Source of the DNA: Phytoactinopolyspora alkaliphila
Lineage (GTDB): Bacteria > Actinomycetota > Actinomycetes > Jiangellales > Jiangellaceae
NCBI RefSeq assembly: GCF_010550695.1
Contig: NZ_JAAGOB010000015.1
Span: 1-64,000, forward strand
Reading direction: 5' to 3'
Length of the DNA stretch: 64,000 nt
Below are positions 1 through 14,364 of this stretch, one piece after another. The position numbers and the translations under genes are program-made. Within the stretch, counting starts at the first letter, position 1. Every line of letters begins with the position of its first letter. The notes under the pieces are model-generated. The model was given only the letters and a program-made list of their open reading frames with translations. It did not search any database and was not told where the DNA came from.

Positions 1-1309
1 CCATCGCATCAGTGACAGACGCCACGTCGCTGTTCGGGGTCCATTCCTGCGAACGAGTTCGCCCTAAAGCGTCGGTGACCTCGATGACGCGGTCATCTGA
101 GTCGAAGACGAACACCGAATCGTGACCGTTCGGATCGGTCACGGTCGTCTCGTCACCGTCGTAGGCGAACGAGGTCACCGCGGCGTCGCCGCTCTGAGCG
201 TGCTGCGTCAGGTACCGCCTGATCTCGGCGACACGGTCCGAGCCGTCGTAGGAAATCTGGGTGCTGTACCCATTCGGGCTGGTCACCCATTCCAGCAGGC
301 CGTCGCTGTTGTAGCCGTACACAGTGATTACCGCTGGCTGCCCGGGCAACGTCGGCGCGGTCACCGTGCTCAGCCGACCAGCCGAATCGTAACCGTAGAC
401 CGTCTCCCGGCCGCCAGCATCAACAACATGGGTAGCCCGGCGAGAGGTGTCGTGGAAGATGTCCGTGGAGCGATGGGCGGCGTCCCGCATGCCCCAACCC
501 ACCTGGGTACCAGGAAACGGCCCGTCGATATGGACCATGGAATCATTTCCTACATCGTTGCGGTCACGGTCACTGGTCAACGTCCCGCTCGATGTGAACC
601 GCAACCACTCCCCTGTACGCTGGTATTCGACCCTATATCCACCACCACTGAGCTCGGTCAGGTCAGCATTGAGTCCCGGCGGTGCGACCCAATCGCCGTT
701 CGAATCCTGCGTGAACGTCTGCGCGAACCCTGTCGGGCCGTAGAAGGTCGCTTCATCATTGTCGACGTCGAGACGGATATCCGGCCAGGCCGACAACGTC
801 CACCGATCCCGCAACGGCGACGTCGTTGAATCATTCGCCAGACTGTTGTAGTAGCGATCGATCCGGTGAGCGACGCCCGGAGCATCGATCTGCACGTCAT
901 TCGCCTCGAGCAGAAGATTCCCGTTGCCAATGTTCACCCGCAACACAGAACTATCCCATAATTCGAAGTCCTGAAACGAAAAGAACGGCATCGCACCCGT
1001 AGACGACGTTCCGATAGATAAAAGTCCTGCACCAAACCCCTCGCCGTCGCCGTCCTCACTCAATAGCTCTTCACGGAGTAGCTGCTCGAACTCCTCGACC
1101 TCGACAGCGCCATCGACGTCTCGCACCGCTTCATCCGGCGCATCCCACACCGGCAAGTCTTTCAGTTCCAGGGTTTCAACTACTGGACCCGCATCTGCAA
1201 TTTCAGTGTCGACTCCCACCATGGAAACACATAGAGCCACACTTAATGCCGAAAACCCCACCCTCTTATCGAACCCGCGCATACTCAGGCCCACCCTCGT
1301 GCCACCCAT
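1..1309 (-). CDS. Secreted DUF6531/RHS-repeat protein, N-terminal part (runs off the window)
   Basis: The open frame enters at the left edge, so only the first 436 codons are visible. The ATG at 1309 is preceded by GGGGAG; a second ATG lies nine codons inside. The N-terminus has basic residues, a hydrophobic stretch of about 18 residues and a DAG-type cleavage region, so it is probably exported. Around residues 125-170 the motif VNIGNGNLLLEANDVQIDAPG followed shortly by DRYYNS resembles DUF6531, the domain that opens RHS/YD shells. From about residue 300 come YD repeats such as YGYDSAGRLSTVT, FAYDGDETTVTDPNG and DSDDRVIEVTDALGR. RHS proteins encapsulate a variable C-terminal domain, often a toxin. 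That end is outside the window, so the cargo is unknown. It lies downstream of the wall hydrolase gene on the same strand, with 177 bases between them. Confidence 0.85.
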   Translation of the reverse strand, partial: MGGTRVGLSMRGFDKRVGFSALSVALCVSMVGVDTEIADAGPVVETLELKDLPVWDAPDEAVRDVDGAVEVEEFEQLLREELLSEDGDGEGFGAGLLSIGTSSTGAMPFFSFQDFELWDSSVLRVNIGNGNLLLEANDVQIDAPGVAHRIDRYYNSLANDSTTSPLRDRWTLSAWPDIRLDVDNDEATFYGPTGFAQTFTQDSNGDWVAPPGLNADLTELSGGGYRVEYQRTGEWLRFTSSGTLTSDRDRNDVGNDSMVHIDGPFPGTQVGWGMRDAAHRSTDIFHDTSRRATHVVDAGGRETVYGYDSAGRLSTVTAPTLPGQPAVITVYGYNSDGLLEWVTSPNGYSTQISYDGSDRVAEIRRYLTQHAQSGDAAVTSFAYDGDETTVTDPNGHDSVFVFDSDDRVIEVTDALGRTRSQEWTPNSDVASVTDAM

Positions 1310-1486
1310 AACTAACTCCCCACCCCTCGATAGCTTGCCCTCAGCTAACAAAAACTTTGCAACTCTGTGAACCCAGAAACATATAACGAATAAATAACGA
1401 AGAACTCAATGCTGATGATTTGATCATGAACCTAAGTCCTGGCTCATCTCTTGGTCGCCGACTTGACCTGGAAGCATGCGCGTGTC

Positions 1487-2485
1487 TTATGGCTCAAGAC
1501 TCTCAGTCTGGAACCACGATTCTGGGTCAATCGGCGATCCGTTGGCTGTGATGGTCAGGTGCAGGTGTGGGCCGGTCGAGAGTCCTTCGTGTCCGACGGT
1601 TCCGATCTTCTGGCCGGGGTGGACTGTCTCACCTCGGCCCACGGTTGATGTGCTCATGTGTCCGTAGACGCTTGCGTGCCCGTCGGCGTGGGTGATCTCG
1701 ACGGTGTTCGGGCCGGACCAGACCCGGTACCCGGTGTAGGTGACGGTGCCGGCGGCGATGGCGCGCACGGGCGTGCCGGAGGGTGCAGCGAAGTCGAGTC
1801 CGTCGTGGAGTTTCCATTCGCCGGTGATGGGGTGCTCGCGGTAGCCGTATCGGTCGGTGATCCGGTAGGCGCCTTTCCCGATCGGCAATACGGCTGAACA
1901 CGAATGGCCTTCGGTGAGGTCGGCTAGCCAAGCCCGCGCGCGCTGTTCCCACCGGCCGTAGCGTTCCGGGTAGGCGCTTCGCTGCACCGCCTGAGCGGCG
2001 TCGCCGACGGGAATGCGGTGCCATTCCGCGATGTCGAGCAGACCGGGCGGCTCGCTTGCCGCGCCGAGGCTGTTCGGCCCACCGGGGCCGCCGTAGAACG
2101 CCCGGGCGGCGTAGGAGACGTCCATGATCTGGCCTGGTGTCCCCCACCCCATAGAGGGTCGCTGCTGGAACACCCCGAGTGAGTCCCGGTCCCCGTAGTC
2201 GAGGTTACGCACGCCCGACTCGACGGCCGCGGTCACCAGCGCCACGATCAGTCCCCTGCGTGGGACGCCCGCCTTCTGGCCTTCAGCGATGATGATTCGT
2301 GCGACGCGGGACTGCTCGTCGTCCAGGCCAGGTGCCGTGCCTGTTGCGGCGCAGTGCTCGCCCCAGATGTCGCCGTCGGGCTCTTCGTCGTCAAGGTCGT
2401 CACCCAAGACCACGCTGGCGCCCAGTGCCGCCGTAAACAGGAACATCACAGGCACCAGGAAGGCAGCTGCGGCTTTGCCGAGCAT
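1487..2485 (-). CDS. Transglycosylase-like / M23 peptidase wall hydrolase
   Basis: This is a 332-residue membrane-anchored or exported cell-wall hydrolase. Residues 4-27 form one hydrophobic segment. Residues about 50-195 look like a lysozyme/transglycosylase-type domain (TAAVESGVRNLDYGDRDSLG, then GVFQQRPSMGWG), where the Glu in AAVESG is the likely acid. Residues about 205-325 are an M23 LytM peptidase: YGYREHPITG, HDGLDFAAPSGTPV with the zinc His and Asp, and GPHLHLTI with the HxH pair. The ATG directly follows the TAG of the upstream gene, so translation is probably coupled. Such two-domain hydrolases open a path through the wall for conjugation machines in actinobacterial elements. That role is inferred from family and context. 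Confidence 0.9.
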   Translation of the reverse strand: MLGKAAAAFLVPVMFLFTAALGASVVLGDDLDDEEPDGDIWGEHCAATGTAPGLDDEQSRVARIIIAEGQKAGVPRRGLIVALVTAAVESGVRNLDYGDRDSLGVFQQRPSMGWGTPGQIMDVSYAARAFYGGPGGPNSLGAASEPPGLLDIAEWHRIPVGDAAQAVQRSAYPERYGRWEQRARAWLADLTEGHSCSAVLPIGKGAYRITDRYGYREHPITGEWKLHDGLDFAAPSGTPVRAIAAGTVTYTGYRVWSGPNTVEITHADGHASVYGHMSTSTVGRGETVHPGQKIGTVGHEGLSTGPHLHLTITANGSPIDPESWFQTESLEP

Positions 2486-3243
2486 CTACGGTTGCCGATC
2501 TACGACGCGCAGCACGCGGCAGCCGGACCATTCGTCGGCGCACCCGATGAGCATCTGCAGGGACGGGTGCACGGTCTGAGTCTGTGACGTGCCGTCCGGT
2601 TGATCGAACGTGATTCGCTGGTGCCCGGTGACCAGGACCATGGTGGTGCTCGCGCCTGCTGCCGCCAGTTCTGCACTCGTCTGGATGGGTTCGACGCCGA
2701 CCGGTTCGCGCACGTCGAAGTTTGCCCGCTGATGGTGGTCGGCCAGTCGGTCCCACACGTCCGGCGCAGGCACGAGAGCCACGACCCCGGCAAGGTCCGA
2801 GTCGTCAGCGAACGCCGCCATGGCTTGCTCGGTGTTGTCGTCGTCGCCCCCGAGGGTCACCGACCACAAGGCGTCCGCGTAGGCGTCACGATCCAGTCGG
2901 TAGTCCGCGCCGTAGGTGGTTTCAGCGACCCACCGGGCAAGCAGTTCCGGTCGCCTGTGGGAGGCGACGGGATCCGTGGCTCGGTCTGCGAGTCACGGGT
3001 GAGCATTTCAGGTCCCGTTGGGGTCGGGTCCGGCGTAGACGTGGCTGTTGGAGACGATGTCGCCGGATCGGTCGGTCGTTCGCCACCGCCGCCGATGACA
3101 CTCGCAAGCGTCACGGCGAGAAGCGCTGCGGCGACGGCCGCGATAGCTGCGATTCCTCTGAGGTGTCTCACGTCGTCTGTCCGCCTTTCTTCTGGGACGG
3201 CCACGAGGTCGGGGTCATAGGTCGATTCCCTGCCTCGAGGCAC
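2486..3243 (-). pseudogene. Membrane-anchored conjugation-cluster protein with an apparent frameshift
   Basis: Two adjoining frames read as one protein. The first (start 3243) begins MPRGRESTYDPDLVAVPEE, has a hydrophobic helix (IAAIAAVAAALLAVTLASVI) and a Pro/Thr-rich linker. The second frame continues with ELLARWVAETTYGADYRLD and ends at 2486 with RVLRVVDRQP. The second frame has no plausible start for its upstream part; its only candidate is a TTG at 2869. The total length, 758, is not a multiple of three, and the switch lies near 2945. Joined, the product would be about 250 residues: a short cytoplasmic N-terminus, one helix and an exported globular domain. It sits between the wall hydrolase and an unknown gene in one leftward operon. 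Either the gene is broken or one base is wrong in the assembly. Confidence 0.65.
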
Positions 3244-3874
3244 CCGGTGTGACGGTGAGCGGGGTATCTAGCGGTCCCCATTGGCGTCGACGCGCCATCA
3301 CGGTGATGGTCACCAGCAGCGCTCGCGAGGCAGCGTCGTAAGAGAGCTGCCCGTGCTCGACCGCGGCGACCACGCGTTGGCCGACAGCGTCGGCTTCCGG
3401 GCGGATCGTGTCCGCGACGGGACGGAGGATCCGTGCGTCGGTGTGTACGGGTTGCAACTCCCAGCCGAGCTGGTCCAGCCGGTACAACCCATACGTGTCC
3501 GGGTCGAGGTGAAAGGACCCATGCGCGCCGTCGCGCCGCTGCCCCGTGCCGTCGGTGATCACATCCCGGAAGTCGACGCGTACCCGGTCGCCGTTCCAGC
3601 TCAGGCGGTCCAGCGCCGGCTGCGCTTCGCCGGCGGGTGTGGCGTAGCTGGTTCGCTGCATCACGTGTCGTCGTGCCGTGTGCAGGTCAGCTTGGCGAGC
3701 GACGATCGCGGCCATCACGTCGCGGTTCACCAGCGGGCACATCGGATCGCCGTTCGATCTTGTGGACTGATCTGCCCAGGCTGCGACCTCAAAGGCGGTC
3801 AAGTATCCCCCACCACTGCGGTGGTTGGCTCGGACGTGTTCCCACGTGCCCGAGACGAAATGTGCGTCATTCAT
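3215..3874 (-). CDS. Unknown protein of the transfer-like operon
   Basis: This 219-residue product is unrecognised. I start it at the ATG at 3874 (MNDAHFVSGTWEHVRANHRS) because AGAGGTG lies just upstream and the ATG falls 12 bases after the stop of the previous gene. The longer frame into the upstream gene is Arg-rich and looks like out-of-frame read-through. The sequence is soluble, with no signal or membrane helix. It contains a distinct central part (LDPDTYGLYRLDQLGWELQP) and ends in a helical, basic tail. Its 3' end overlaps the next gene by 29 bases. Co-transcription with the wall hydrolase suggests an accessory role, but no function can be assigned. Confidence 0.75.
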   Translation of the reverse strand: MNDAHFVSGTWEHVRANHRSGGGYLTAFEVAAWADQSTRSNGDPMCPLVNRDVMAAIVARQADLHTARRHVMQRTSYATPAGEAQPALDRLSWNGDRVRVDFRDVITDGTGQRRDGAHGSFHLDPDTYGLYRLDQLGWELQPVHTDARILRPVADTIRPEADAVGQRVVAAVEHGQLSYDAASRALLVTITVMARRRQWGPLDTPLTVTPGASRQGIDL

Positions 3875-3885
3875 TCCGGCACCTC

Positions 3886-5604
3886 TCACTCCTTCTGCTC
3901 GGCGTTCTGGTTCAGGCCCAGATGGGCCACTACGTCGGTCCGGCGGATGGCGTGCACCCGCTCGTCGTCGACGACGAGCAATGCCCCGCACGCCGTCGCG
4001 GCGTGCGGGATGGGTGTCTGCGGGGAATCGCGCAGCGTGCCGTGACGGTCGACGGTCACGACCTGACCGGTTCGGCGTCTCCCCCAGATCCGCTCATCGA
4101 CGTGCCGAAGCCAGGTGATGTCTGCTTCGACGATCGGATCGAACGCAGCCGCGACCGGCAGGAGCACCGGCCCAAGGCCGACCATGACCGGCGTATCGCC
4201 AATAGTGGCGACCAATTCAGCCTGCTCAACGTCCGCCCACGCAGCCTTCGCCGACACGAGCGGCTGCCCGTCGGCGGTGTCATGAACGACAACGATGACA
4301 TCGCGTTGCGGGTCCGGTTCACCTGGCTCGTCCCAGACAACCGTCACGGTGTGCCCGGCCATACCTGCAAAGCGTCGTGGCGTCATGCCCTCCGGGCCTA
4401 TCAAGGTGACCCGTTCAGTGAGGCCACTATCGATGGGTGTGCGGTGAAGAGCAGGGCGGCCGTCGGAGGCGACGACGTCACCGTTGATCGCGCCCATCGC
4501 CGTTGCTCCATCCGGAACGGGCACCCATTTCAGGCCCGTGTCGGTCAGAACGCCTGCTTCTGTTGGCTTCTCCGGGTCGGTGACCATGAGCTGGCCGCCG
4601 GCGCGACTCAGCTCAGCTCGCGGGCCAATATTGTCGACGACGGTCGCCGCGTCGCCGACGCCTTTCATGACGATCAGCTCGCGGTGATGCCAGGCGATGA
4701 CGTCACGCCCGGCACGACCGATCACAGCCAGTGCGCTGGTGGGTTCCTGCGCAGAAGACCATCTCTGGGTTCCGGTGCGTGCATCGACAAGCCGCACGTT
4801 CCCATCACTGGTCTGCACGGCGACCGAGCGGCCAGCATCAGCTATCAGCGGTTTCGTGCCTGCAGCGATGCCTACGCTCCATACCGGCTGGAGCGAGCCA
4901 ATGGCGGTACGTCCTATCTCCGCCAACGAAGCCGTCGTCGCCCCGCGGCTGGTGTCACCGCCTGTCGCCTGCAAGGTGAGCAAGCAGACGAGAAGCACCC
5001 CCATGGCACACGCCACCACCGGTGTCACGCCCCGTCCTGCGGGGTAGCGCCCGTCCCCGGCGCGGACGCCACCCCGACCTTCGGTGACAGGCGCCGCCGC
5101 GTCATCTGCCTGGCGGTCAGCGCCCCAAGCAGGCGACCAGCCATTACCGTCGCTACCGTCGTCGCCCTGTACGCGGGCGGCGTTCGGAGCCGAGGCCCCG
5201 ACACGTGGCGCTGCGTCGTCGTAGCCAGACTCATCAACCGACTGCGGATCCCCAGCCCTGTCGTGGACATCCTGCTCTTCTTCGCCAGCGGGTATGGGTT
5301 GCTCAGTGTCCGGGCACAGTGGAGCATGTTCCGGTTCCGGGCGTTCGTTTGTGACGGCCGGCTGAATCAATGGCGAGGTAGTGGTGGGGTTGACGACGTT
5401 GCGGTAGGCGCGGCCGCGCTCGTCGACCGTTCTCACCAGCAACGGGCCGCCCGCAGCCGTCGCCATCGTGGCCAGCAGCGCCCATGCCTCGGATCGATCG
5501 ACGATCCTCTCCCCGTCTGCACAGGCCGGACCCGACTGGGTGGCCGTGGCGTCACCGAGTTCATCCACGGTGATCACCACAGTCACGTCCGGTCGATACG
5601 CCAA
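3886..5604 (-). CDS. Membrane-anchored PQQ-like beta-propeller protein
   Basis: This is a 572-residue protein with three parts. Residues 1-90 form a small cytoplasmic domain (MAYRPDVTVVITVDELGDAT). Residues 90-195 are an acidic, low-complexity linker. A single membrane helix follows (TPVVACAMGVLLVCLLTLQA), and then about 350 exported residues. That last part carries repeats of the quinoprotein/WD type, for example VAVQTSDGNVRLVDARTGTQ, and fits a PQQ-like propeller used as a binding surface. The start is a TTG at 5604, supported by AAGGAGG five bases upstream. It heads the run of genes toward the wall hydrolase. A scaffold role at the cell envelope is inferred only from topology. Confidence 0.8.
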   Translation of the reverse strand: MAYRPDVTVVITVDELGDATATQSGPACADGERIVDRSEAWALLATMATAAGGPLLVRTVDERGRAYRNVVNPTTTSPLIQPAVTNERPEPEHAPLCPDTEQPIPAGEEEQDVHDRAGDPQSVDESGYDDAAPRVGASAPNAARVQGDDGSDGNGWSPAWGADRQADDAAAPVTEGRGGVRAGDGRYPAGRGVTPVVACAMGVLLVCLLTLQATGGDTSRGATTASLAEIGRTAIGSLQPVWSVGIAAGTKPLIADAGRSVAVQTSDGNVRLVDARTGTQRWSSAQEPTSALAVIGRAGRDVIAWHHRELIVMKGVGDAATVVDNIGPRAELSRAGGQLMVTDPEKPTEAGVLTDTGLKWVPVPDGATAMGAINGDVVASDGRPALHRTPIDSGLTERVTLIGPEGMTPRRFAGMAGHTVTVVWDEPGEPDPQRDVIVVVHDTADGQPLVSAKAAWADVEQAELVATIGDTPVMVGLGPVLLPVAAAFDPIVEADITWLRHVDERIWGRRRTGQVVTVDRHGTLRDSPQTPIPHAATACGALLVVDDERVHAIRRTDVVAHLGLNQNAEQKE

Positions 5605-5666
5605 GAAGCCCTCCTTCGCTGAGCCGGCGGCACAGGATTCACAGAACGCGCGGGGCCCGTATGTCG

Positions 5667-6569
5667 TCAGGCAGGAACCGCACAGCGGTGGGTATCAGCT
5701 GCTGCGTTGCGGAACGGTGCCGCGAATCGGTCCACCCGCGCCGCAAACGCCGAAGGAGTGACCGTTCGGCCGCTGCCCTCGCCTTGACACTCACGGCGCA
5801 GCGCCAGCCACGCCGATTCCTCCGGACCGCCGCGGCGAGTGCCGATCAGTAACTCGGCAAGAGCACGGCGTTGGGTGTGGGTGAGCCCGTTGAGCTGCTC
5901 GCACCGATACACGGCCGTATGCATGCGCGACTTGGAATCCGCCGAGGACGCGGCGTCGATGACGCCGAGGATCGCGTCCGCCGCCACGGTGGCTGGCGCT
6001 CCAGCGGCCACCAAGTCTTCATGAACCGTGCGCAACGCCTGATCCCAGTCCGCGGTCACGTCCACGTCCAGGGCGGCGAGGACCTCGTCGCTGACGGGGT
6101 CATCGCTCGCGTTGCCATTGGAACCGGAGCCGAAACGCGTCTCGGCGCAGTCGCCGACGCGGATCATCGTGTGCAGGTGGTGAGCCGGCATCCGTGAGCG
6201 CACCTTGGACTCCAGCAGATGACGGGCATGCCGCTCGGACACGCCCAGCTCGTCTGCCAGCGTCGCCGCGCTCGCCAAATGTCGCATCGCCGTGCGAAGC
6301 AGCGACCACGGCGACCTGGCCCGCAACACGGACTCGGCGTCGGTCTTCAGGAACTCCCACGCCAGCCCGGCCAGGTGATCCGCCCGATGCGGATCCTCGA
6401 TCGCGCCATACGGCGAGATCCATCGACGCGCCACTGATCGCAGCGCATCGATCACCGCACGTCCGGTCGGGCCGTCCCAACCACCATCCGCGGGCATCCG
6501 ACGCAGCGCGGCCCGCAACCCATCGTTGCTGCAGACGTCGCCGACGTGACTGTTCGTAGTCTCACGCAC
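5667..6569 (-). CDS. Cytoplasmic HTH-containing protein of the element
   Basis: I start this 300-residue protein at the GTG at 6569 because GGGAGG stands seven bases upstream. The frame extends further but without a better start. Residues about 115-135 (LADELGVSERHARHLLESKV) have the spacing of a helix-turn-helix. The middle is helical with an acidic patch, and a second helical region begins at CEQLNGLTHTQRRALAEL. I see no enzyme motif. It lies 62 bases upstream of the propeller gene and could regulate or accompany it. It may be a DNA-binding control protein of the element; the family is not recognised. Confidence 0.7.
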   Translation of the reverse strand: MRETTNSHVGDVCSNDGLRAALRRMPADGGWDGPTGRAVIDALRSVARRWISPYGAIEDPHRADHLAGLAWEFLKTDAESVLRARSPWSLLRTAMRHLASAATLADELGVSERHARHLLESKVRSRMPAHHLHTMIRVGDCAETRFGSGSNGNASDDPVSDEVLAALDVDVTADWDQALRTVHEDLVAAGAPATVAADAILGVIDAASSADSKSRMHTAVYRCEQLNGLTHTQRRALAELLIGTRRGGPEESAWLALRRECQGEGSGRTVTPSAFAARVDRFAAPFRNAAADTHRCAVPA

Positions 6570-6849
6570 CGTGAACCTCCCACATCCCTGCGGACACAGA
6601 CGCGGTCCCGGCACTCGCCGGCTTGGATAGGGCTTCTGCGTGGCCGCTCGGTCGCTTTAAAGGCCCGATCACAACGGGCAGCCCTCACCGAGAATCCGAC
6701 CGAACGACTGACCGAGCTCCTTACCGAGGACGACGGCGCAGCTCAGCGGCTGGATAATCCGTCGCGGCCGTCGAGCGGATGATCTGACGTGCCCGCTGAC
6801 CGTGTCCTCCCCAAGGACCATGTCGACGTGTCGGTAAGGCATCCCACAC

Positions 6850-7158: not shown

Positions 7159-7497
7159 TCAGTCATCGCTCACCGGCCCCACGACATAGGTGCCTTTGGC
7201 CGCCACAACACGGACCAGACCACGAGACGCCAGCACACCCACGGCCCGCCGGACCGTACCCAGCGATACGCCGCAATCCCGCGCGAGCTCCCGCTCTGAC
7301 AGCAGCCGGGCGCCCGGCTTCAGCACTCCTGAGTCGATCAATGCCGTCAGGTGCTCAACAAGCTTCACGTAGACATAGCCAGGGGGACCTGAGTTGGGGT
7401 CGAACAACCCCTCCGCGTCTTCTGAGTCGCGATCATGCTCCCGTGGACCGCGCGCTTCGGCTGTCACGTGGGCGTTCGCCGGTAGATTGGTTGCCAC
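7159..7497 (-). CDS. GntR-family winged-helix regulator (KorSA-like)
   Basis: This is a 112-residue regulator. Residues 1-35 form a polar tail. The remainder is a GntR DNA-binding domain (YVKLVEHLTALIDSGVLKPG, then LLSERELARDCGVSLGTVRR and LASRGLVRVVAAKGTYVV). No ligand-binding domain follows. The GTG start at 7497 is preceded by AGGAGG at eight bases. Short GntR proteins such as KorSA of pSAM2 repress replication and transfer genes of integrative elements. Here the gene is divergent from a small HTH gene, and a 13-bp inverted repeat lies between them, which suits an autoregulated switch. Confidence 0.85.
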   Translation of the reverse strand: MATNLPANAHVTAEARGPREHDRDSEDAEGLFDPNSGPPGYVYVKLVEHLTALIDSGVLKPGARLLSERELARDCGVSLGTVRRAVGVLASRGLVRVVAAKGTYVVGPVSDD

Positions 7498-7691: not shown

Positions 7692-7955
7692 ATGGACAAG
7701 CCGCTGGTCGATCTGGACCGCCTCCGCGCGATCGCCGACCCAGCCGAACGTGCCCTTGCCGCTGGCGAAGTCCTGAACGAGATGCCGAACCTGGCCGAAG
7801 AGCTACGCAAACTTCGCCAGGCGGCCGTCCTGGAACTGCGGGACGCTGGATGGTCATACGCCCAGATCGCTGAACGGCTCGGCCTCCACCGCAATCGGGT
7901 GCAGCAGATCGCCCAAGGCTTCACGAGCAAAGACCGGCGTCGAGCAAACGATTGA
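7692..7955 (+). CDS. Small sigma-like HTH protein
   Basis: An 87-residue helical protein. The C-terminal half (AVLELRDAGWSYAQIAERLG, then LHRNRVQQIAQGF) has the pattern of a sigma-70 region 4 helix-turn-helix. There is no core-binding region 2, so it is not a complete sigma factor. Such small proteins occur beside the GntR repressor in actinomycete integrative elements. Ribosome-binding support for the ATG is weak. It is the only rightward gene at this switch point and is probably controlled by the inverted repeat upstream. Confidence 0.75.
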   Translation: MDKPLVDLDRLRAIADPAERALAAGEVLNEMPNLAEELRKLRQAAVLELRDAGWSYAQIAERLGLHRNRVQQIAQGFTSKDRRRAND

Positions 7956-8170
7956 TCACGCCCTCCAGCCATGTACGCACCGGGTGTGACGAACGAGTAG
8001 GACTCACGGTTGTCGACGGACTGCCCGAGCAGGACCGCGAGCAGTTGCGGGGAGATTTGCCGGGACTGGACAACAGCTGACGCTAGGGTCTTTGTCCTCT
8101 GGTGCTGAGCGAAGCCGATGATGATGATCAGGCGAGAGCCGACTTAGGGATTATGTGAGGGGAAGGTGGC

Positions 8171-8593
8171 GTGCTGAAGACCTGGAAGTGCGATATCTGT
8201 GGCGAAGCCACGGAGAGCGTCGAAGACGCCTACGCCTACTGGAGGGATGACGTACAGGGGAGGGAGGTCGACTTCAAGATCGCGCACAAGATGCGATGCG
8301 ACCCCGGGCCTGAGTTCGTGAACTGTATGGACATCGACGAATTTCTCGGCGACGACGGTCTGACCCGGCTTCTCGCCATGTTGAGTGCCGGTCCGCTGAA
8401 AGGACCACAAGGCGGGGAGGTCCATGTCGCAGACCTCAACGAGTTCGTCGATTTCGTCCGGCGTCTACACACTCCTGGCTACGAGGAGGCTCGTCCCCAC
8501 TTCAGAAGTCACGAAGTGCAAGAGGCCTATTGCGATACAGATGAGGTGTTCCCATACCTCCAGGAGAACCTTGAGCAGATAGCTAAGAGCTAG
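8171..8593 (+). CDS. Hypothetical protein with N-terminal CxxC
   Basis: A 140-residue protein starting at a GTG with GGGGAAGG upstream. The beginning MLKTWKCDICGEATESVEDA looks like half of a zinc knuckle, and a later Cys (KMRCDPGPEFVNC) could complete it. The rest is acidic and helical (VHVADLNEFVDFVRRLHTPG). It has neither membrane segment nor signal. It stands alone between the HTH gene and a convergent lipoprotein gene, so it looks like cargo of the element. Function is unknown. Confidence 0.7.
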   Translation: MLKTWKCDICGEATESVEDAYAYWRDDVQGREVDFKIAHKMRCDPGPEFVNCMDIDEFLGDDGLTRLLAMLSAGPLKGPQGGEVHVADLNEFVDFVRRLHTPGYEEARPHFRSHEVQEAYCDTDEVFPYLQENLEQIAKS

Positions 8594-8709
8594 CTGTTTT
8601 GGCCACCACGCGATCTTCTGGTCAGGACCGACGCCCGGCGAGACGTGTCGCGAGCGTGCTTTCAATTTCGAGAGAGGTGTTTGCCGCTACGCTGGCGTTT
8701 CCCCATGCC

Positions 8710-8744
8710 GAAGCCCCGGCCGAATTCGGGTCGGCCGGGCCTTC
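8710..8744. terminator. Stem-loop between convergent genes
   Basis: GAAGCCCCGGCCG at 8710-8722 pairs with CGGCCGGGCCTTC at 8732-8744 with one mismatch across a nine-base loop. It lies between the rightward gene ending at 8593 and the leftward lipoprotein gene ending at 8765. No T-run follows on either strand, so if it terminates transcription it is of the stem-only kind common in actinobacteria. Confidence 0.45.
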
Positions 8745-8764
8745 GTGGTGGGTGAGGGCAAGGT

Positions 8765-9130
8765 TTACTGGCCGACGATGCCCCTCGCGGCTGCGCGGGT
8801 CTCTAGGGCAAGGCATCCATCAGGTGCCTCAAGGACCATGTTGGCCCAAAGCACAAAATCGGCGCGCATCTCCACTTGTATGAGTTCTTCGCGCCCTTCC
8901 TCGTCGCGGGCCGCCCACCAGGTGAGCGGATCGGAGCTTGTCTTATCGGCATCCCAATCGTCGTACATGCCTTGGATCTTCTCCGCCATCTGATTCTCGT
9001 GCCGTTCAATCACAATGATGGCCTCCTCGCACGGGGAGGCCGGCTCGTCAACCCGTTCCGGCGTGTCGCCACAGCCCGCGAGTCCAACGAGGACCGTGAA
9101 GCCGAGGCCGATGAGAACTCGGATACGCAT
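8765..9130 (-). CDS. Small lipoprotein
   Basis: This 121-residue product has a textbook lipoprotein leader: [20 protein letters not shown] with Cys as the lipidation site. The mature part is acidic and helical ([20 protein letters not shown]). I take the ATG at 9130, four codons inside the longest frame, because GGGGG lies upstream of it. The protein should be anchored on the outer face of the membrane. Small lipoproteins of integrative elements often act in surface exclusion or mating. Nothing in this sequence decides that. Confidence 0.75.
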
Positions 9131-9216
9131 GTCAACCCCCAAATGAAGGCCTCATTCTGACAGGTGCCGGACATCGCCGCTAGGGCACACGAGCCCCAGA
9201 AGCGGAGCTCCTTTTC

Positions 9217-9393
9217 TCATGCGAGCCGGGCCAGCTTCAGCCGCTCGGCGACCAAGCTGTACCCACGCTGCAAGTGTTTCGCGCACAGCAGGATCTCGGC
9301 GTACTCGTCTGCGACCTCGGCCGTGCAACGTTCGCCGTTGCGGCGGAGGTACCGGCACTGTTCGTATGCGCGCTCACAGCCACCACGCCCCGA
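9217..9393 (-). CDS. Tiny Cys/His-rich protein with unclear start
   Basis: The frame ending at 9217 reads CRYLRRNGERCTAEVADEYA, EILLCAKHLQRG and a helical tail. The C-x7-C ... C-x2-H spacing looks like a small zinc-binding fold and the composition is natural. However, the frame opens just after a stop at about 9394 and has no ATG, GTG or TTG before the Cys motif. A GTG in the neighbouring frame, at the end of the upstream gene, would need a one-base shift to enter it. It is therefore either a frameshifted gene or one with an unusual start. Confidence 0.4.
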   Translation of the reverse strand, partial: SGRGGCERAYEQCRYLRRNGERCTAEVADEYAEILLCAKHLQRGYSLVAERLKLARLA

Positions 9394-9688
9394 TCAGGAT
9401 GCCGAGCGCGAGGCTGGTGAGAACGAGCAGCACGTCCCGCAGCCAGGCGAGGTCGGGCCGAAAGGCGGGGGCGTTGACCTCGATGTGGCCGCCCTGCCAT
9501 TCGTCGAACTCGGCCTGCAGCTTACGCATCGCCTCATCCATCTCCGGTGTGTGGGACATGCCGCGAGCACGTTCGGCGTTGTACCGGGCCAGTACTTCGA
9601 ACTTCTCCGGCATCTCGCGGCCGGTGAGCGCGAGTATTTGCGGCCACTGAGCCTGAGTGGCGGCCAGTGCCTGCTCGGCGCCGCGCAT
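9374..9688 (-). CDS. Small protein with C-terminal membrane helix
   Basis: This is a 104-residue protein. Residues 1-80 are hydrophilic and helical, possibly coiled (MDEAMRKLQAEFDEWQGGHI). The last 20 residues (DVLLVLTSLALGILIGAWWL) form a tail anchor. Tail-anchored topology leaves the helical part in the cytoplasm. The ribosome-binding site before the ATG at 9688 is weak. It belongs to the leftward string of small genes of the element. Function is unknown. Confidence 0.65.
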   Translation of the reverse strand: MRGAEQALAATQAQWPQILALTGREMPEKFEVLARYNAERARGMSHTPEMDEAMRKLQAEFDEWQGGHIEVNAPAFRPDLAWLRDVLLVLTSLALGILIGAWWL

Positions 9689-9712
9689 GCCGCGGGTTTC
9701 CAGAACTTCATT

Positions 9713-9991
9713 TCAGCCCTCCACGAGCGCGAGGTTCGGACGGGTGTTGGACGCTGGGTGGGTCGCGGCGCGCTCGAACGCGACCCGCAGTGCACGACGG
9801 ATGTCCTCGACGTCAAATTCGCTCAAGAACACGGCCATGGATCGCTTCTCGGCGCCGGCCTCGTAGGTCAACTCGATCCGGACCTGCGGCTCGAGGGGCT
9901 CGGTCTCGACCCAGGCCGGGCAGACCGACAGCTCGTGGCAGTCGTCCAGCTCGATGATGGTAGTTCCGCTGAGGGTGGTGGGTGTGGTCAT
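9713..9991 (-). CDS. Hypothetical small protein
   Basis: The product has 92 residues and an ATG at 9991 preceded by GGAGAAACC. It looks like a compact beta-sandwich followed by a helix (VFLSEFDVEDIRRALRVAFE). No motif of known function is visible. It is part of the leftward small-gene string and probably shares a transcript with the genes at 10016-11112. Confidence 0.65.
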   Translation of the reverse strand: MTTPTTLSGTTIIELDDCHELSVCPAWVETEPLEPQVRIELTYEAGAEKRSMAVFLSEFDVEDIRRALRVAFERAATHPASNTRPNLALVEG

Positions 9992-10015
9992 GGTTTCTCC
10001 GTTCGGTTCAGTGGG

Positions 10016-10342
10016 TCAGGCTTCGAGGAACATCCACACGTCGCAGTCAGTCGAGTGGGTGTGGACGACGTAGGCGGCGCCATGGTCCGGCCGGTCGAAG
10101 TCGGCGCGAACCTCGACTTGGGCGTGCGCGCAGCAGTCGCCGCGGGGAGGCACGTACGGCAACGTTGTGAGCGTGATGAACGTTGCGTAGTCCGGCTGGG
10201 GCTTCGGCTCCGCCGTGTACAACCCGCACGTGCCGCACGGCTCCCCGTGGGAGCTAGCGACGTCGTTGCACTCACTGCAACTCGCGGGAGTTTCGGTGAG
10301 GCTCTCTGTGCCCGGGTCGGGTAGTTGGTGCTGGTCGGTCAT
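10016..10342 (-). CDS. Cys-rich hypothetical protein
   Basis: This is a 108-residue protein whose ATG at 10342 follows CAGGAG closely. Four cysteines in two CxxC pairs (SCSEC and CGTCG, 16 residues apart) probably bind zinc. A later region (GDCCAHAQVEVRADFD, then HTHSTDCDVW) holds further Cys and His. No enzyme motif is visible. It is a member of the leftward small-gene string of the element. Confidence 0.65.
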   Translation of the reverse strand: MTDQHQLPDPGTESLTETPASCSECNDVASSHGEPCGTCGLYTAEPKPQPDYATFITLTTLPYVPPRGDCCAHAQVEVRADFDRPDHGAAYVVHTHSTDCDVWMFLEA

Positions 10343-10355
10343 CGTGATTCTCCTG

Positions 10356-10535
10356 TCAGCTGGCCACGCTGCGGGCGCAGTCGCGGCAGAGGTGGTCGGC
10401 GGGCGGTTCAGTGCCAGGTGCCCACGGCCAGCCGCACATCCGGCATTCGTTCGCGGTGCTGGCGGCGTACTCGTCCTTGCGTTCCCTGAGCAGGCGGTTA
10501 CGGACGACGATGGCTCTGGCGCCGTTGGTGACCAT
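10356..10535 (-). CDS. Small zinc-ribbon protein
   Basis: This is a 59-residue protein starting MVTNGARAIVVRNRLLRERK. It carries CRMCGWPWAPG and, 15 residues on, CRDC, which is a classic two-CxxC zinc ribbon. It lies in the same frame as the preceding broken gene, five codons after that gene's TAG. Read-through fusion is therefore conceivable, but a separate start is simpler. Its 3' end is 13 bases before the next gene start. Small zinc ribbons often bind nucleic acid; the role here is unknown. Confidence 0.6.
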   Translation of the reverse strand: MVTNGARAIVVRNRLLRERKDEYAASTANECRMCGWPWAPGTEPPADHLCRDCARSVAS

Positions 10536-10550
10536 GCCGGTGGCGGTCCG

Positions 10551-10812
10551 CTATTCCACGTCGTCGATGAAGCCGCCGACAGCGTTCTCGATCGCCTCGA
10601 TGAGGGCGTCGTCGTCGATGCGTCCTTCGTCGTAGTCGCGTTGCAGTTGTGCCCATGGCCGGGTCTTGGATTTGGGATGAATGACTGAGGGGAGAGCAGG
10701 TTCCGGCTTCGCCGGGGCCCGTCGACGTGTTCTTGTCGGCCTGCTCGACGCGGTCGTAGCTACCTAGCGGCGCCGGGATGTCCTGAATGCTCAGTTGCTC
10801 GTTGGTGCTCAT
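10551..10812 (-). pseudogene. Small helical protein gene with an apparent frameshift
   Basis: The ATG at 10812 overlaps the stop of the upstream gene (ATGA) and starts MSTNEQLSIQDIPAPLGSYD. The natural-looking C-terminus (TRPWAQLQRDYDEGRIDDDA, then LIEAIENAVGGFIDDVE) is in another frame that has no start codon of its own. The interval of 262 bases is one more than a multiple of three. The switch lies near 10695, by a run of four C. The gene is either broken or carries an assembly error. The product is helical and acidic, with no known motif. Confidence 0.5.
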
Positions 10813-10958
10813 GCCGCCGCCCCGCATTCCTCGCGGAGGCGTTTCCGGTCGATGGCAAGCCGGACGATCCGGGCTGCGCGGGCCAGCGTGGGCGGATCGT
10901 CGACGGCGCGAGTCTGAGACTCCTGGCACGGTGGGTCGGTCGCGATGCGGTCAGCCAT
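10809..10958 (-). CDS. Very small hypothetical protein (49 residues)
   Basis: The frame starts MADRIATDPPCQESQTRAVD and ends RKRLREECGAAA. Its ATG overlaps the end of the upstream gene by eight bases, and its TGA overlaps the ATG of the next, so the three genes appear translationally coupled. The product is soluble with a basic helical C-terminus. Function is unknown. The longer frame upstream is ignored because it overlaps the coupled neighbour. Confidence 0.5.
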   Translation of the reverse strand: MADRIATDPPCQESQTRAVDDPPTLARAARIVRLAIDRKRLREECGAAA

Positions 10959-11112
10959 CGAGCGCCGCCAGCTCGGCCTGGGCTGCCTCGATGGCCTCCT
11001 CGGCGCGAATCCGTAGGAACTCGCGTCGAAGACGCTCGATCTCGGCCTCATCGGCGCCATGACTGACCGCGCTGGCCAGATAGGCACGGGCCCTTGTCGA
11101 GCGTGGGTCCAT
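10951..11112 (-). CDS. Very small helical protein (53 residues)
   Basis: It starts MDPRSTRARAYLASAVSHGA and continues as one amphipathic, possibly coiled-coil helix (EIERLRREFLRIRAEEAIEA). It is the first gene of the leftward small-gene string. The 570 bases upstream hold no gene but many palindromes, so its promoter should lie there. Ribosome-binding support is weak. Its helical character would allow dimerisation or protein binding. Function is unknown. Confidence 0.55.
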   Translation of the reverse strand: MDPRSTRARAYLASAVSHGADEAEIERLRREFLRIRAEEAIEAAQAELAALDG

Positions 11113-11422
11113 CGGGCCAAATTTTGCCGATCGGCTACTTGCGCGTAGGCGTGATTGCACTACCATCCGAGGTAGTCCTTCCTGTGGAGGTTGGGCGCTG
11201 CCCCGGCCTTGCTGTCGCGTCTCTCGCCAAAGATTCCGCGATAGCAGGCCGGGCTTTTGCATCTGGGCGCTAGGCCCGACGCTTCGAGATACTAGGGCCG
11301 GGATACGCCTCACACAACCTCAACACGCACATCGGTCGGCGAACCCCGATACCTCCCGTGACCTGCGGTATAGGGGTGTACCACAAGATTCCGACAAGCC
11401 GCGCCCTTAGCACTTTCCACAG

Positions 11423-11530
11423 GGTTATCCATAACCGCTGGCGTTCCCACGATGTTGCCTACAGACACGTCTAGACACGTACAGTCCGGACTAGAGCGTT
11501 ACTCGCACATACGTATACGTACATATTCGT
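11423..11530. promoter_or_regulatory. Cluster of palindromes and short direct repeats, possible origin or control region
   Basis: The gene-free stretch 11113-11680 contains an inverted repeat GGTTAT-CC-ATAACC (11423-11436) that includes TTATCCATA, one base off a DnaA box. It also has AGACACGT twice at ten-base spacing (11463, 11473), the palindrome AGTCCGGACT (11483-11492) and the 12-base palindrome TACGTATACGTA (11510-11521). Packed symmetric sites of this kind occur at replication or transfer origins and at regulator-bound promoters. Which of these applies here cannot be decided from sequence. Confidence 0.4.
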
Positions 11531-11680
11531 AGCCACTCCCGTCAGACATCGGCCCCATCTCGGACACGGGCTGGGGACGTTTCATGCAGCCTGTCCACAG
11601 GTTCGAGATGTTCGCTGTGAGCAGAATCGACTGCTCACATTCTGAGATTCGGTGGCTAAGGTCACACGGTCGCGCAAGGG

Positions 11681-12218
11681 GTGTTCAGCGCCACCCGAGC
11701 CCACCAGACGCTGGTCGGCCAGCACCTCGGCCATGCCGAGCCGACGCCCCCTGCCGACCAGCTGATCGAAACGCTGGAACCCCGACTGACCTGTGCGATC
11801 AGCTTCGCCACCCGCCTGCTCCCGCCGGAGGACCGGACCCGAGTCAACGAGGAGTTCGACGCCGAAGTCTGGTCCAGCCTGTCACCCAGCACCCAGCACG
11901 CTGTGCACTCACTGGCCGCGCAACTGGAGGGTTCATGGACCGTGGAAGAGTTGACCGGCCCTCGTCTATTCGATCCCCAAGCTCCAGCTCGGGCTGTCGG
12001 CTGACGCGGCCCCCACCCCTGAGCTGAAGAAGGCACAACGCGAATTCTTCAAGTTCCTTTATCGCCTGTTGTGCGGTGCCGATACGGGACCACGGCTGCC
12101 GACACTATTCCTGTCCATCGGACCAGCCAAGACACGCGACCTGGTCATCGACGACACCAACGACCCCGGACCAGGCACGTCGCAACCAAGGGTGGCAACC
12201 GTCCCCAGGAAGCACTAA
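11681..12218 (+). pseudogene. Remnant of a class I lysyl-tRNA synthetase (C-terminal domain)
   Basis: Two frames join into a recognisable LysRS-I C-terminus. The first gives LIETLEPRLTCAISFATRLL and AQLEGSWTVEELTG. After one surplus C in GGCCCTCG (near 11963) the next frame continues VYSIPKLQLGLSADAAPTPE, then LKKAQREFFKFLYRLLCGAD and TGPRLPTLFLSIG, to the TAA at 12216. The family is usually over 500 residues, with HIGH and KMSKS motifs in the missing N-terminal part, so about two thirds of the gene is absent. What remains is the anticodon-binding helical cage. It is non-functional as a synthetase. It lies upstream of the excisionase gene, so it is probably carried or captured DNA. Confidence 0.75.
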
Positions 12219-12344
12219 GAGCCACAACCAGGACATCCCACCCAACACTGAATCGCGCCGCTCCAGCAGCGTGCACAAACGAACGTCTCCCTCTCAGCAA
12301 AGGCCCACACGTCGATTGGGCCCGCGGAGAGAGGACAACACGCC

Positions 12345-12557
12345 GTGGCCACTCAATCAGCTCACACCCTGCGTTCCCATCGGCATCTCACCGTGGCGGA
12401 CATCTGCGAAGAGCTCGGCATCTCGCGGTCCACGTTCTACGAGTGGCGCGTCAAGAACACCGCGCCACCGTGCATCAAGCTCCCCAATGGCGAACTCCGC
12501 GTCCGCCGCGCAGATCTCGACGCCTGGATCGAGTCATGGACGGAGCACACCGTCTGA
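12345..12557 (+). CDS. xis: Excisionase-like HTH protein
   Basis: A 70-residue MerR/AlpA-like DNA-binding protein: LTVADICEELGISRSTFYEW is a winged HTH, followed by a basic beta-strand and a helix (ELRVRRADLDAWIESW). The GTG start has GAGAGGAC upstream. Its TGA overlaps the ATG of the integrase by one base, so the two are co-translated. In this position such proteins are recombination directionality factors that drive excision. Assignment rests on fold and position. Confidence 0.8.
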   Translation: MATQSAHTLRSHRHLTVADICEELGISRSTFYEWRVKNTAPPCIKLPNGELRVRRADLDAWIESWTEHTV

Positions 12558-13933
12558 TGCTCACCAGCTACAACGCCCGCGTCTGGAAAACCACCGTTCG
12601 CAAGGGCACCCGAGTCACCACCTATTACGTGCGCTGGGGCGTAGACGGCCGGGCATTCAACCGGTCTTTTCGAAAACGAGCGCAAGCGGATAGCTTCCGC
12701 TCCGAGCTGGTGTCAGCTGCCCGCAAGGGCGAGGCATTCAATGTGAACTCCGGCCTACCAGAATCGATGCAACAGGCCGACAAGGAGATTTCTTGGTATG
12801 AGTTCGCCTGCGACTACGTCGACGCCAAATGGCCCAAGTCGGCGGCCACCACTCGCCGCACCATCGCCGAGGCAATGACCGCCGTCACCTGTTCGATGTT
12901 CACCACCGACCGCGGTCAACCCGACGGCGTACAGCTTCGGTCCGCAATAAAACGGTACGCGTTCAACACCAGCCGCCGAGCCAGCCCCGACATCCCCGAC
13001 ATCCCCGAACAGGCTACGCAAGCGCTGCGCTGGGCCAGCCGACACACCCGTCCAGCAGCAGACCTCAACGACCCACAAGTCCTACGGAAAATTCTCGACG
13101 ACCTGGCCATACGCCTAGACGGCACCCCGCGGGCACCGAGTGTGGTTTCCAGGTGGCGACGAATCCTGCACAACGCCGTCGAGTACGCCATCGAACGCAA
13201 GATCCTCACCACCAATCCCATACCGGCGCTCAAATGGAAACCACCTCGCACCGTTCAGGCCGTCGACCGCCGCCGCGTCGCCAACCCCAGCCAAGTACGA
13301 GCATTACTCACCGCCGTTGACAAGCGTGCACCTCACCTGGTCGCCTTCTACGCCTCCTTGTACTTCGCCGCCCTGCGTCCGGAAGAAGCCGCCGCGTTAG
13401 CCAAGCAGAGCATCGATGGGCCGGCTGAGGGCTGGGGCAAGATTCACCTCGAGAACGCCAAGCCTCACGCTGGCAGCGAGTGGACCAACTCCGGAGATGA
13501 ACGCGACAATCGCCAACTCAAGCAACGCGCGATCGGCGAGACCCGCACCGTACCGTGCCCGCCGGAACTCACCGCACTGCTACGTCGCCACATCAAACGG
13601 TTCGGTACCACAGCGGACGGGCGACTCTTCGTCGGCGAACGCAACACCGACCACCTTCCGGCCCTCAGCGTCACCCGAACATGGGCTCATGCCCGAGAGT
13701 CCGTCTTCGGCGAGAATGCCGGAACGTCTCACGTCGCGGCCAGACCCTACGACCTACGCCACGCAGCCGTCTCGACATGGCTCAACGCCGGCGTCCCGGC
13801 AACCCAGGTCGCCGAATGGGCAGGCCACTCCGTCGACGTCCTCCTCAAGATCTACGCAAAGTGCATCGACGGCGACGCAGCGCGCAACCAAGCCAAGATC
13901 GACAACGCTCTGGGGCGCTCGATCGGCGACTAA
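12557..13933 (+). CDS. int: Tyrosine recombinase / integrase
   Basis: This 458-residue integrase catalyses site-specific recombination between the element and the tRNA-Glu gene. Residues 1-60 form an N-terminal arm-binding domain, residues 80-220 a core-binding domain, and the rest the catalytic domain. The catalytic residues visible are Arg in FAALRPEEAAALAK, YDLRHAAVSTWLNAG (with Tyr where many relatives have His), His in AEWAGHSV and the nucleophile Tyr in LLKIYAKC. The ATG at 12557 overlaps the excisionase stop; an in-frame ATG at 12536 is the alternative. The gene ends 118 bases from the 3' end of the tRNA gene, the usual place for the attachment site. Confidence 0.92.
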   Translation: MLTSYNARVWKTTVRKGTRVTTYYVRWGVDGRAFNRSFRKRAQADSFRSELVSAARKGEAFNVNSGLPESMQQADKEISWYEFACDYVDAKWPKSAATTRRTIAEAMTAVTCSMFTTDRGQPDGVQLRSAIKRYAFNTSRRASPDIPDIPEQATQALRWASRHTRPAADLNDPQVLRKILDDLAIRLDGTPRAPSVVSRWRRILHNAVEYAIERKILTTNPIPALKWKPPRTVQAVDRRRVANPSQVRALLTAVDKRAPHLVAFYASLYFAALRPEEAAALAKQSIDGPAEGWGKIHLENAKPHAGSEWTNSGDERDNRQLKQRAIGETRTVPCPPELTALLRRHIKRFGTTADGRLFVGERNTDHLPALSVTRTWAHARESVFGENAGTSHVAARPYDLRHAAVSTWLNAGVPATQVAEWAGHSVDVLLKIYAKCIDGDAARNQAKIDNALGRSIGD

Positions 13934-14004
13934 AACTTCAACACGTATTCAACAAGAACAGTCGGAGAAACCCGTTTCCAGCCGGAGACAGCCGGACACA
14001 CGAA

Positions 14005-14044
14005 GAGCGCCCCTCACTCGCGTTTCCGCAGGTGAGGGGCGCTC
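14005..14044 (-). terminator. 13-bp perfect stem-loop downstream of tRNA-Glu
   Basis: GAGCGCCCCTCAC (14005-14017) and GTGAGGGGCGCTC (14032-14044) pair perfectly around a 14-base loop. On the minus strand it lies six bases after the CCA end of tRNA-Glu and is followed by TTCGTG, so it probably ends tRNA transcription. It could also end integrase transcription from the other side. It sits at the junction between element and chromosome. Confidence 0.65.
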
Positions 14045-14050
14045 TACCAG

Positions 14051-14126
14051 TGGTAGCCCCGACGGGATTCGAACCCGCGCTACCGCCTTGAGAGGGCGGC
14101 GTGCTAGGCCGCTACACAACGGGGCC
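14051..14126 (-). tRNA. tRNA-Glu (anticodon CTC)
   Basis: Read on the minus strand, GGCCCCG and CGGGGCT form the acceptor stem (one G-U pair), followed by A and an encoded CCA. The anticodon arm is CCGCC-CTCTCAA-GGCGG with anticodon CTC, which reads GAG. The T arm is GCGGG-TTCGAAT-CCCGT. Every stem is intact. The 3' end faces the integrase gene 118 bases away, so the terminal part of this gene is the probable attachment site, restored by the element after insertion. Confidence 0.95.
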
Positions 14127-14364
14127 TTTGCAGTGCATCGACGCGGTGCGTCGCAGTTCGGAACTCTACCCGACCTTGCCTCAGCTCACCAAACTGGGCG
14201 CAAACGCAGTGTTCGGAAGGGCCGGCCCATCCGCATCAGCCTCCGTTGAGGGGCAACGCGGAACGCGGCACGACGTCGCGTCACCAGCGCGTCGCGATCC
14301 CACTCTCGACCGACAGCTGGCGTGAGGCTAGGCTGGAGATCACGCTCTTCATTCGGAGGCACAG

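Follow-up and report, generated by a model that had tools for sequence, protein, structure and literature searches.

Why does the end of a class I lysyl-tRNA synthetase (LysRS-I) gene lie next to an integrase gene in Phytoactinopolyspora alkaliphila, and does this mean that integrative elements carry such genes from one genome to another? The window analysed here is the whole stretch of 64,000 nucleotides from contig NZ_JAAGOB010000015.1. A previous sequence-only reading of it had described a decayed LysRS-I directly upstream of xis-int and had proposed that carriage by an integrative element, for instance as a self-resistance synthetase, would explain the patchy spread of this enzyme.

A truncated LysRS-I split over two frames

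The last ~155 residues of LysRS-I are found at window positions 11684-12146 (+), where the homology shifts from frame +2 to frame +3 at a one-base frame break near 11957. The locus is composed as follows.

11684..11956, + strand: first part of the LysRS-I remnant (start of the C-terminal region), frame +2, homology clear from about 11711
11958..12146, + strand: second part of the LysRS-I remnant (C-terminal end), frame +3
12147..12218, + strand: tail of the open frame up to the stop, 24 codons without LysRS homology, the LysRS alignments stopping at 12146

Compared with the limits first proposed (11681-12218), clear homology to the Thermocrispum protein thus begins about 30 bases later and stops 72 bases earlier. 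Using LysRS-I proteins of other actinomycetes as tblastn queries, we obtained matches at 11726-11956 (frame +2) and at 11958-12146 (frame +3), the best E-value for the C-terminal region being 5e-28; a separate alignment gives the same shift between frames. The LysRS-I of locus L089 is 35% and 63% identical to the two parts (joint E 2e-24), while that of Thermocrispum (L105) reaches 49% over 82 aa (E 5e-18) and 68% over 62 aa (E 7e-25); the Thermocrispum sequences taken together are 46-49% identical to the first part over these 82 aa (E 1e-18 to 5e-18), and the second part is 73% identical to the LysRS-I of genome G464. The NCBIfam LysRS-I model NF001968 matches the second part at positions 479-521 of 528 with 19.5 bits (E 2.7e-4), far under its cut-off of 648 bits. 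The first part by itself matches neither NF001968 nor Pfam, and a search of solved structures with this part alone gave no meaningful match. The tblastn matches in two frames and the match to NF001968 identify a LysRS-I C-terminal region and confirm the decayed gene end with a single-base frame break that had been read upstream of xis-int.

The remnant does not form a continuous open reading frame. The frame break may be a sequencing error; the truncation is not explained in this way. The longest possible peptide has 107 residues (from 11681-12004), and the fragment most likely does nothing today.

The missing catalytic part and the host's own synthetase

In model searches, the N-terminal two thirds of LysRS-I were absent both at the locus and elsewhere in the draft host genome. 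The catalytic-domain family PF01921 has no match over its cut-off in this genome, the sole match scoring 19.9 bits against a cut-off of 27 on a different contig from the fragment, and no LysRS-I catalytic domain with the class I signature motifs was recognised there. Truncated and frame-broken, the fragment is not the intact synthetase that self-resistance would call for. It had been suggested to check the host for an intact chromosomal LysRS-I: at E<=1 the LysRS-I model finds in the host genome this fragment only (E 0.0045), and the host possesses instead an intact class II LysRS (G000:C12:638147-639604, 505 bits, over cut-off).

The host's family is represented by 22 genomes, the host being one of them, and none matches the LysRS-I model at E<=1e-3. 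As this threshold misses the host's own fragment, we also used the fragment itself as the query: its second part matches 83 of 393 genomes sampled from the class, the host and 82 others, none of which belongs to the host's family. With class II LysRS intact in the host and LysRS-I found in no other searched genome of its family, the fragment is, judging from these comparisons, foreign to the host lineage, and we rejected a LysRS-I of the host's own as its source. A close match to the host's LysRS, lying outside the element in relatives, would have spoken against a foreign origin; we saw nothing of the kind.

An integrative island at a tRNA-Glu gene

The fragment sits about 200 bp upstream of xis-int in an integrative island located at a tRNA-Glu gene. 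The relevant features are the following.

1487..6614, - strand: gene block in common with the island of genome G004, an M23 peptidase and proteins of unknown function (protein identity, Pfam)
7159..7497, - strand: GntR-type regulator (Pfam PF00392, 52.8 bits)
12346..12558, + strand: small gene read as xis (excisionase), where homology to the relatives' elements begins
12560..13933, + strand: tyrosine integrase of the island (Pfam PF00589 27.9 bits, cut-off 27.1; PHROG integrase 97 bits)
14051..14126, - strand: tRNA-Glu(CUC), which serves as attachment gene at the island's right end (ARAGORN)

Around xis, blastn homology starts at 12347 for L081 (genome G001) and at 12376 for L082 (genome G004). 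The gene at 12346..12558 matches neither Pfam nor PHROG; it is a putative excisionase, so read from its position and from a like-placed helix-turn-helix gene beside the integrase of NZ_CP109278.1. We searched for relatives of the integrase by scoring four candidates per genome and reporting matches at E<=1e-30. Within the host's family, they occur at 90% identity in G001 and at 81% in G004 (both of the host's genus) and at 60-65% in five genomes of another genus, and tRNA-Glu stands just beyond the integrase in all six of these seven relatives that were fetched with flanks. In the host itself, a 24-base piece of the 3' part of tRNA-Glu is repeated exactly at G000:C33:192984 and 204644, each time just after an integrase remnant and as part of a longer alignment (90% and 95%); a fourth copy, with two mismatches, is on contig 29. 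Both remnants, with the tRNA-Glu piece after each, lie in the segment G000:C33:191757-204667 (L083). The tRNA-Glu integrase remnants of the host look like an array of elements which entered one tRNA gene successively.

To the left, the proteins of the block 1487..6614 are 52-64% identical to those encoded left of the same integrase in G004 (L082), with the exception of a 572-aa protein at 38%; one of the proteins of unknown function has a sub-cut-off PQQ_2 match. The counterpart of this block in G004 also stands to the left of the integrase, so that the fragment has island DNA on both sides. As the contig stops short of the island's left end, the evidence for a position inside the island consists of this block, xis-int and the tRNA repeats. 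The placement in a mobile element, which the sequence-only reading had already given, is borne out by this block, by xis-int and by tRNA-Glu. Further left, at 2-1351 (-), there is an RHS-repeat/DUF6531 protein, truncated by the start of the contig.

One could imagine that the host lineage once had a chromosomal LysRS-I, of which all was lost except the fragment, and that the island inserted beside it. The position of the island's left end outside the window would leave room for this, but the 22 family genomes show no LysRS-I model match at E<=1e-3 and the fragment is flanked on the left by genes in common with the G004 island and on the right by xis-int, so that we regard this scenario as extremely improbable.

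The zone left of xis-int differs among the host, G001 and G004: it contains pieces of a Mutator transposase in G004 (Pfam) and defence-like genes in G001. In L081 (G001:C15), positions 7754-14306, left of the 90% identical integrase, encode a Ppl-like defence protein (358 bits), a PDC-S01-like protein (257 bits) and a protein kinase.

According to the accessible part of PMC3218068, actinomycete integrative and conjugative elements (AICEs) have a tyrosine integrase, insert at the 3' end of a tRNA gene and carry variable cargo. The island resembles them in these three respects: its tyrosine integrase stands beside a tRNA gene whose 3'-end repeats are present, on another contig (C33), and a plasmid record with the same integrase family also has a small helix-turn-helix gene beside the integrase. 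It may differ in its other functions: no replication initiator or FtsK-like translocase was recognised among 18 of the window ORFs left of the fragment scanned with Pfam, the island's left end being off the contig.

The fragment belongs to a Thermocrispum-type clade

We scanned the genome_contigs collection (84,980 species) for the second part by pattern, which reaches close relatives only. Three loci were returned, in Streptomyces sp. 7-21 and in two Thermocrispum species, and a good match to both parts (46-49% and 68%) is given by Thermocrispum alone. A Streptomyces-type source was considered and rejected: Streptomyces sp. 7-21 gives the best match of the three on the second part (69%) and only 36% on the first. 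In the family of Thermocrispum, 29 of 249 genomes searched have LysRS-I, and LysRS-I of the same type (at least 61% identical to the query) is present in the two Thermocrispum (L105, L106) and in G573, G460, G464 and G406. These two species and four genomes of the same family form a small, deep clade, and its members are, as a group, the closest relatives of the fragment (44-49% and 65-73% identity to its two parts). In the 397 genomes of an order-wide sample, the LysRS-I of G464 found a match in 17, only the two Thermocrispum genomes being at about 60% identity, and no further member of this type appeared.

In a tree of 37 C-terminal regions, for which the two frames of the fragment were joined as one peptide, the fragment groups with the six Thermocrispum-type sequences with a support of 100/99. 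An AU test designed after the tree had been seen rejects the grouping of the fragment with Streptomyces sp. 7-21 and the six sequences that cluster with the latter (p 7e-4); a grouping with L095 and L097 was also rejected. The branch of the fragment is long (0.72 changes per column). Because of this length and of the post hoc set-up of the AU test, the donor may be described by its type only, and an older residence of the fragment is possible.

The Thermocrispum-type genes are much longer than the fragment (that of G406 is split over two contigs), and such neighbours as were inspected look chromosomal, unlike the island setting of the fragment. In Thermocrispum they are a W/Y-type tRNA synthetase, a BrkB/YihY-type protein and PCMT; in G573 they are lipoate genes. 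Unlike the host, Thermocrispum has no class II LysRS over the cut-off. L141 (G464:C79, 4376-10950) contains the LysRS-I that best matches the second part; about 110 bases upstream of it, in the same orientation, lies a tRNA-Lys(UUU) gene, and about 4 kb downstream there is a gene for a W/Y-type tRNA synthetase.

Do integrative elements carry LysRS-I?

The fragment adjoins an integrase, and the Thermocrispum-type genes have different neighbours in different genomes, which fits gene movement. Moreover, class I LysRS is argued, in the available portion of PMC1475646, to be less sensitive to lysine analogues. The island could thus have carried an intact and useful LysRS-I, for example an analogue-tolerant synthetase, which died in this host. 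Related elements with an intact LysRS-I beside the integrase, which it had been suggested to look for, were not found among the carriers examined. Outside the host, the nearest LysRS-I and integrase on one contig are about 128 kb apart (G039, among the class-sample genomes with both matches). An integrase match at E<=1e-20 exists in 17 of 30 LysRS-I genomes, in none of them near LysRS-I on the same contig; in both comparisons the positions were paired by eye from match lists in genomes that are largely drafts, so that a neighbour on a separate contig escapes notice. We also applied a panel of six integrases, which detects only relatives of its own members, to 38 loci with LysRS-I or pieces of it. 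It recovered nothing but the panel member that comes from L139, where about 7 kb separate a Pfam phage integrase from LysRS-I and this interval contains glutamine-synthetase, lipoyl-synthase-like and lipoate-ligase-type genes. In the host's relatives, the related integrases at tRNA-Glu adjoin other genes, and the genomes concerned show no LysRS-I match. The proposal that the integrative element carries LysRS-I and so explains its patchy spread, perhaps as a self-resistance synthetase, is not supported.

Phage records contain a single LysRS-I, from a halovirus (listed in two records), and none of them matches the second part of the fragment; viral contigs, scanned by pattern once for each query and thus for close relatives only, gave no confirmed relative of the integrase or of the Thermocrispum LysRS-I. 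Six plasmid records have a LysRS-I, and we inspected two. NZ_LR134453.1 (L101), a 26-kb Tsukamurella record labelled 'plasmid 11', includes ftsH, folE, tilS and panC, and its LysRS-I gene adjoins one for Lsr2; it has the appearance of chromosomal DNA under a plasmid label and was rejected as a case of plasmid carriage. The Enterococcus gilvus gene, on a 919-kb plasmid and likewise rejected, is 33% identical to the Thermocrispum LysRS-I. In the literature, among open-licence papers, no title or visible abstract start reports LysRS-I on an actinomycete integrative element. Altogether, a former intact cargo appears unlikely. The wider idea that Thermocrispum-type LysRS-I genes move between actinomycetes as cargo of tRNA-site integrative elements, with the window holding a dead specimen, seems to us quite improbable.

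As only the 3' end of the gene is kept, and it points towards xis-int, the fragment might also be the scar of an insertion into the 3' end of lysRS-I; the accessible text of PMC4701971 indeed describes Streptococcus ICEs with tyrosine integrases, some of which insert in the 3' end of lysS. The integrase here is however at tRNA-Glu, pieces of which recur after two more integrase remnants, and the direct repeats given there for ICEs measure 12-54 bp, against 463 bp here. The panel placed no integrase at a LysRS-I 3' end in the 38 loci, although unrelated ones would be missed. We consider such a scar very improbable.

We therefore favour, with a probability of roughly 0.85, the explanation that the fragment is a pseudogene, the functionless remains of a Thermocrispum-type LysRS-I gene which was laterally acquired by the integrative island. 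The source would have been the chromosome of a Pseudonocardiaceae-like donor, from which the island or its ancestor took up either the gene or no more than its 3' part; the variable zone to the left of xis-int presumably received it through illegitimate recombination. Truncation and the frame break would have followed: the present host has a class II LysRS, so that the captured piece would have been under no selection and would have decayed in a host which did not need it.

LysRS-I alone or beside class II LysRS

LysRS-I had also been said to be often a second copy. We searched 40 carriers for class II LysRS: 19 have one over the family cut-off, one (G464) has a partial one, and 20 have nothing over the cut-off, although draft genomes may miss such genes. 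Among the first 13 (ten class-sample carriers and the three pattern-scan loci), class II LysRS is over the cut-off in 5 and not in 8, one of which (G374) has a sub-cut-off match of 120 bits. The other 27 are the remaining carriers from the Thermocrispum-family search, for which matches were reported at E<=1e-60; 14 have class II LysRS, one is partial and 12 are without it over the cut-off. The statement is therefore half right, LysRS-I being in many of these carriers not a spare. Both states have long been known: PMC1475646, in its available portion, mentions two Streptomyces species that have LysRS1 and no LysRS2, and B. cereus and T. pallidum as having both classes.

That portion of the paper also describes laterally transferred bacterial LysRS1 with a stage at which LysRS1 and LysRS2 coexist. 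Our case is alike in that LysRS-I reached a LysRS-II lineage laterally; it differs in that the newcomer is dead and lies in an island, whereas no vehicle is named in that portion. What this single dead copy shows is limited to the arrival of LysRS-I DNA in an island of a LysRS-II lineage. If it were true that integrative elements carry LysRS-I, they would constitute a concrete vehicle for the inferred transfers of bacterial LysRS-I and for the swaps between LysRS-II and LysRS-I.
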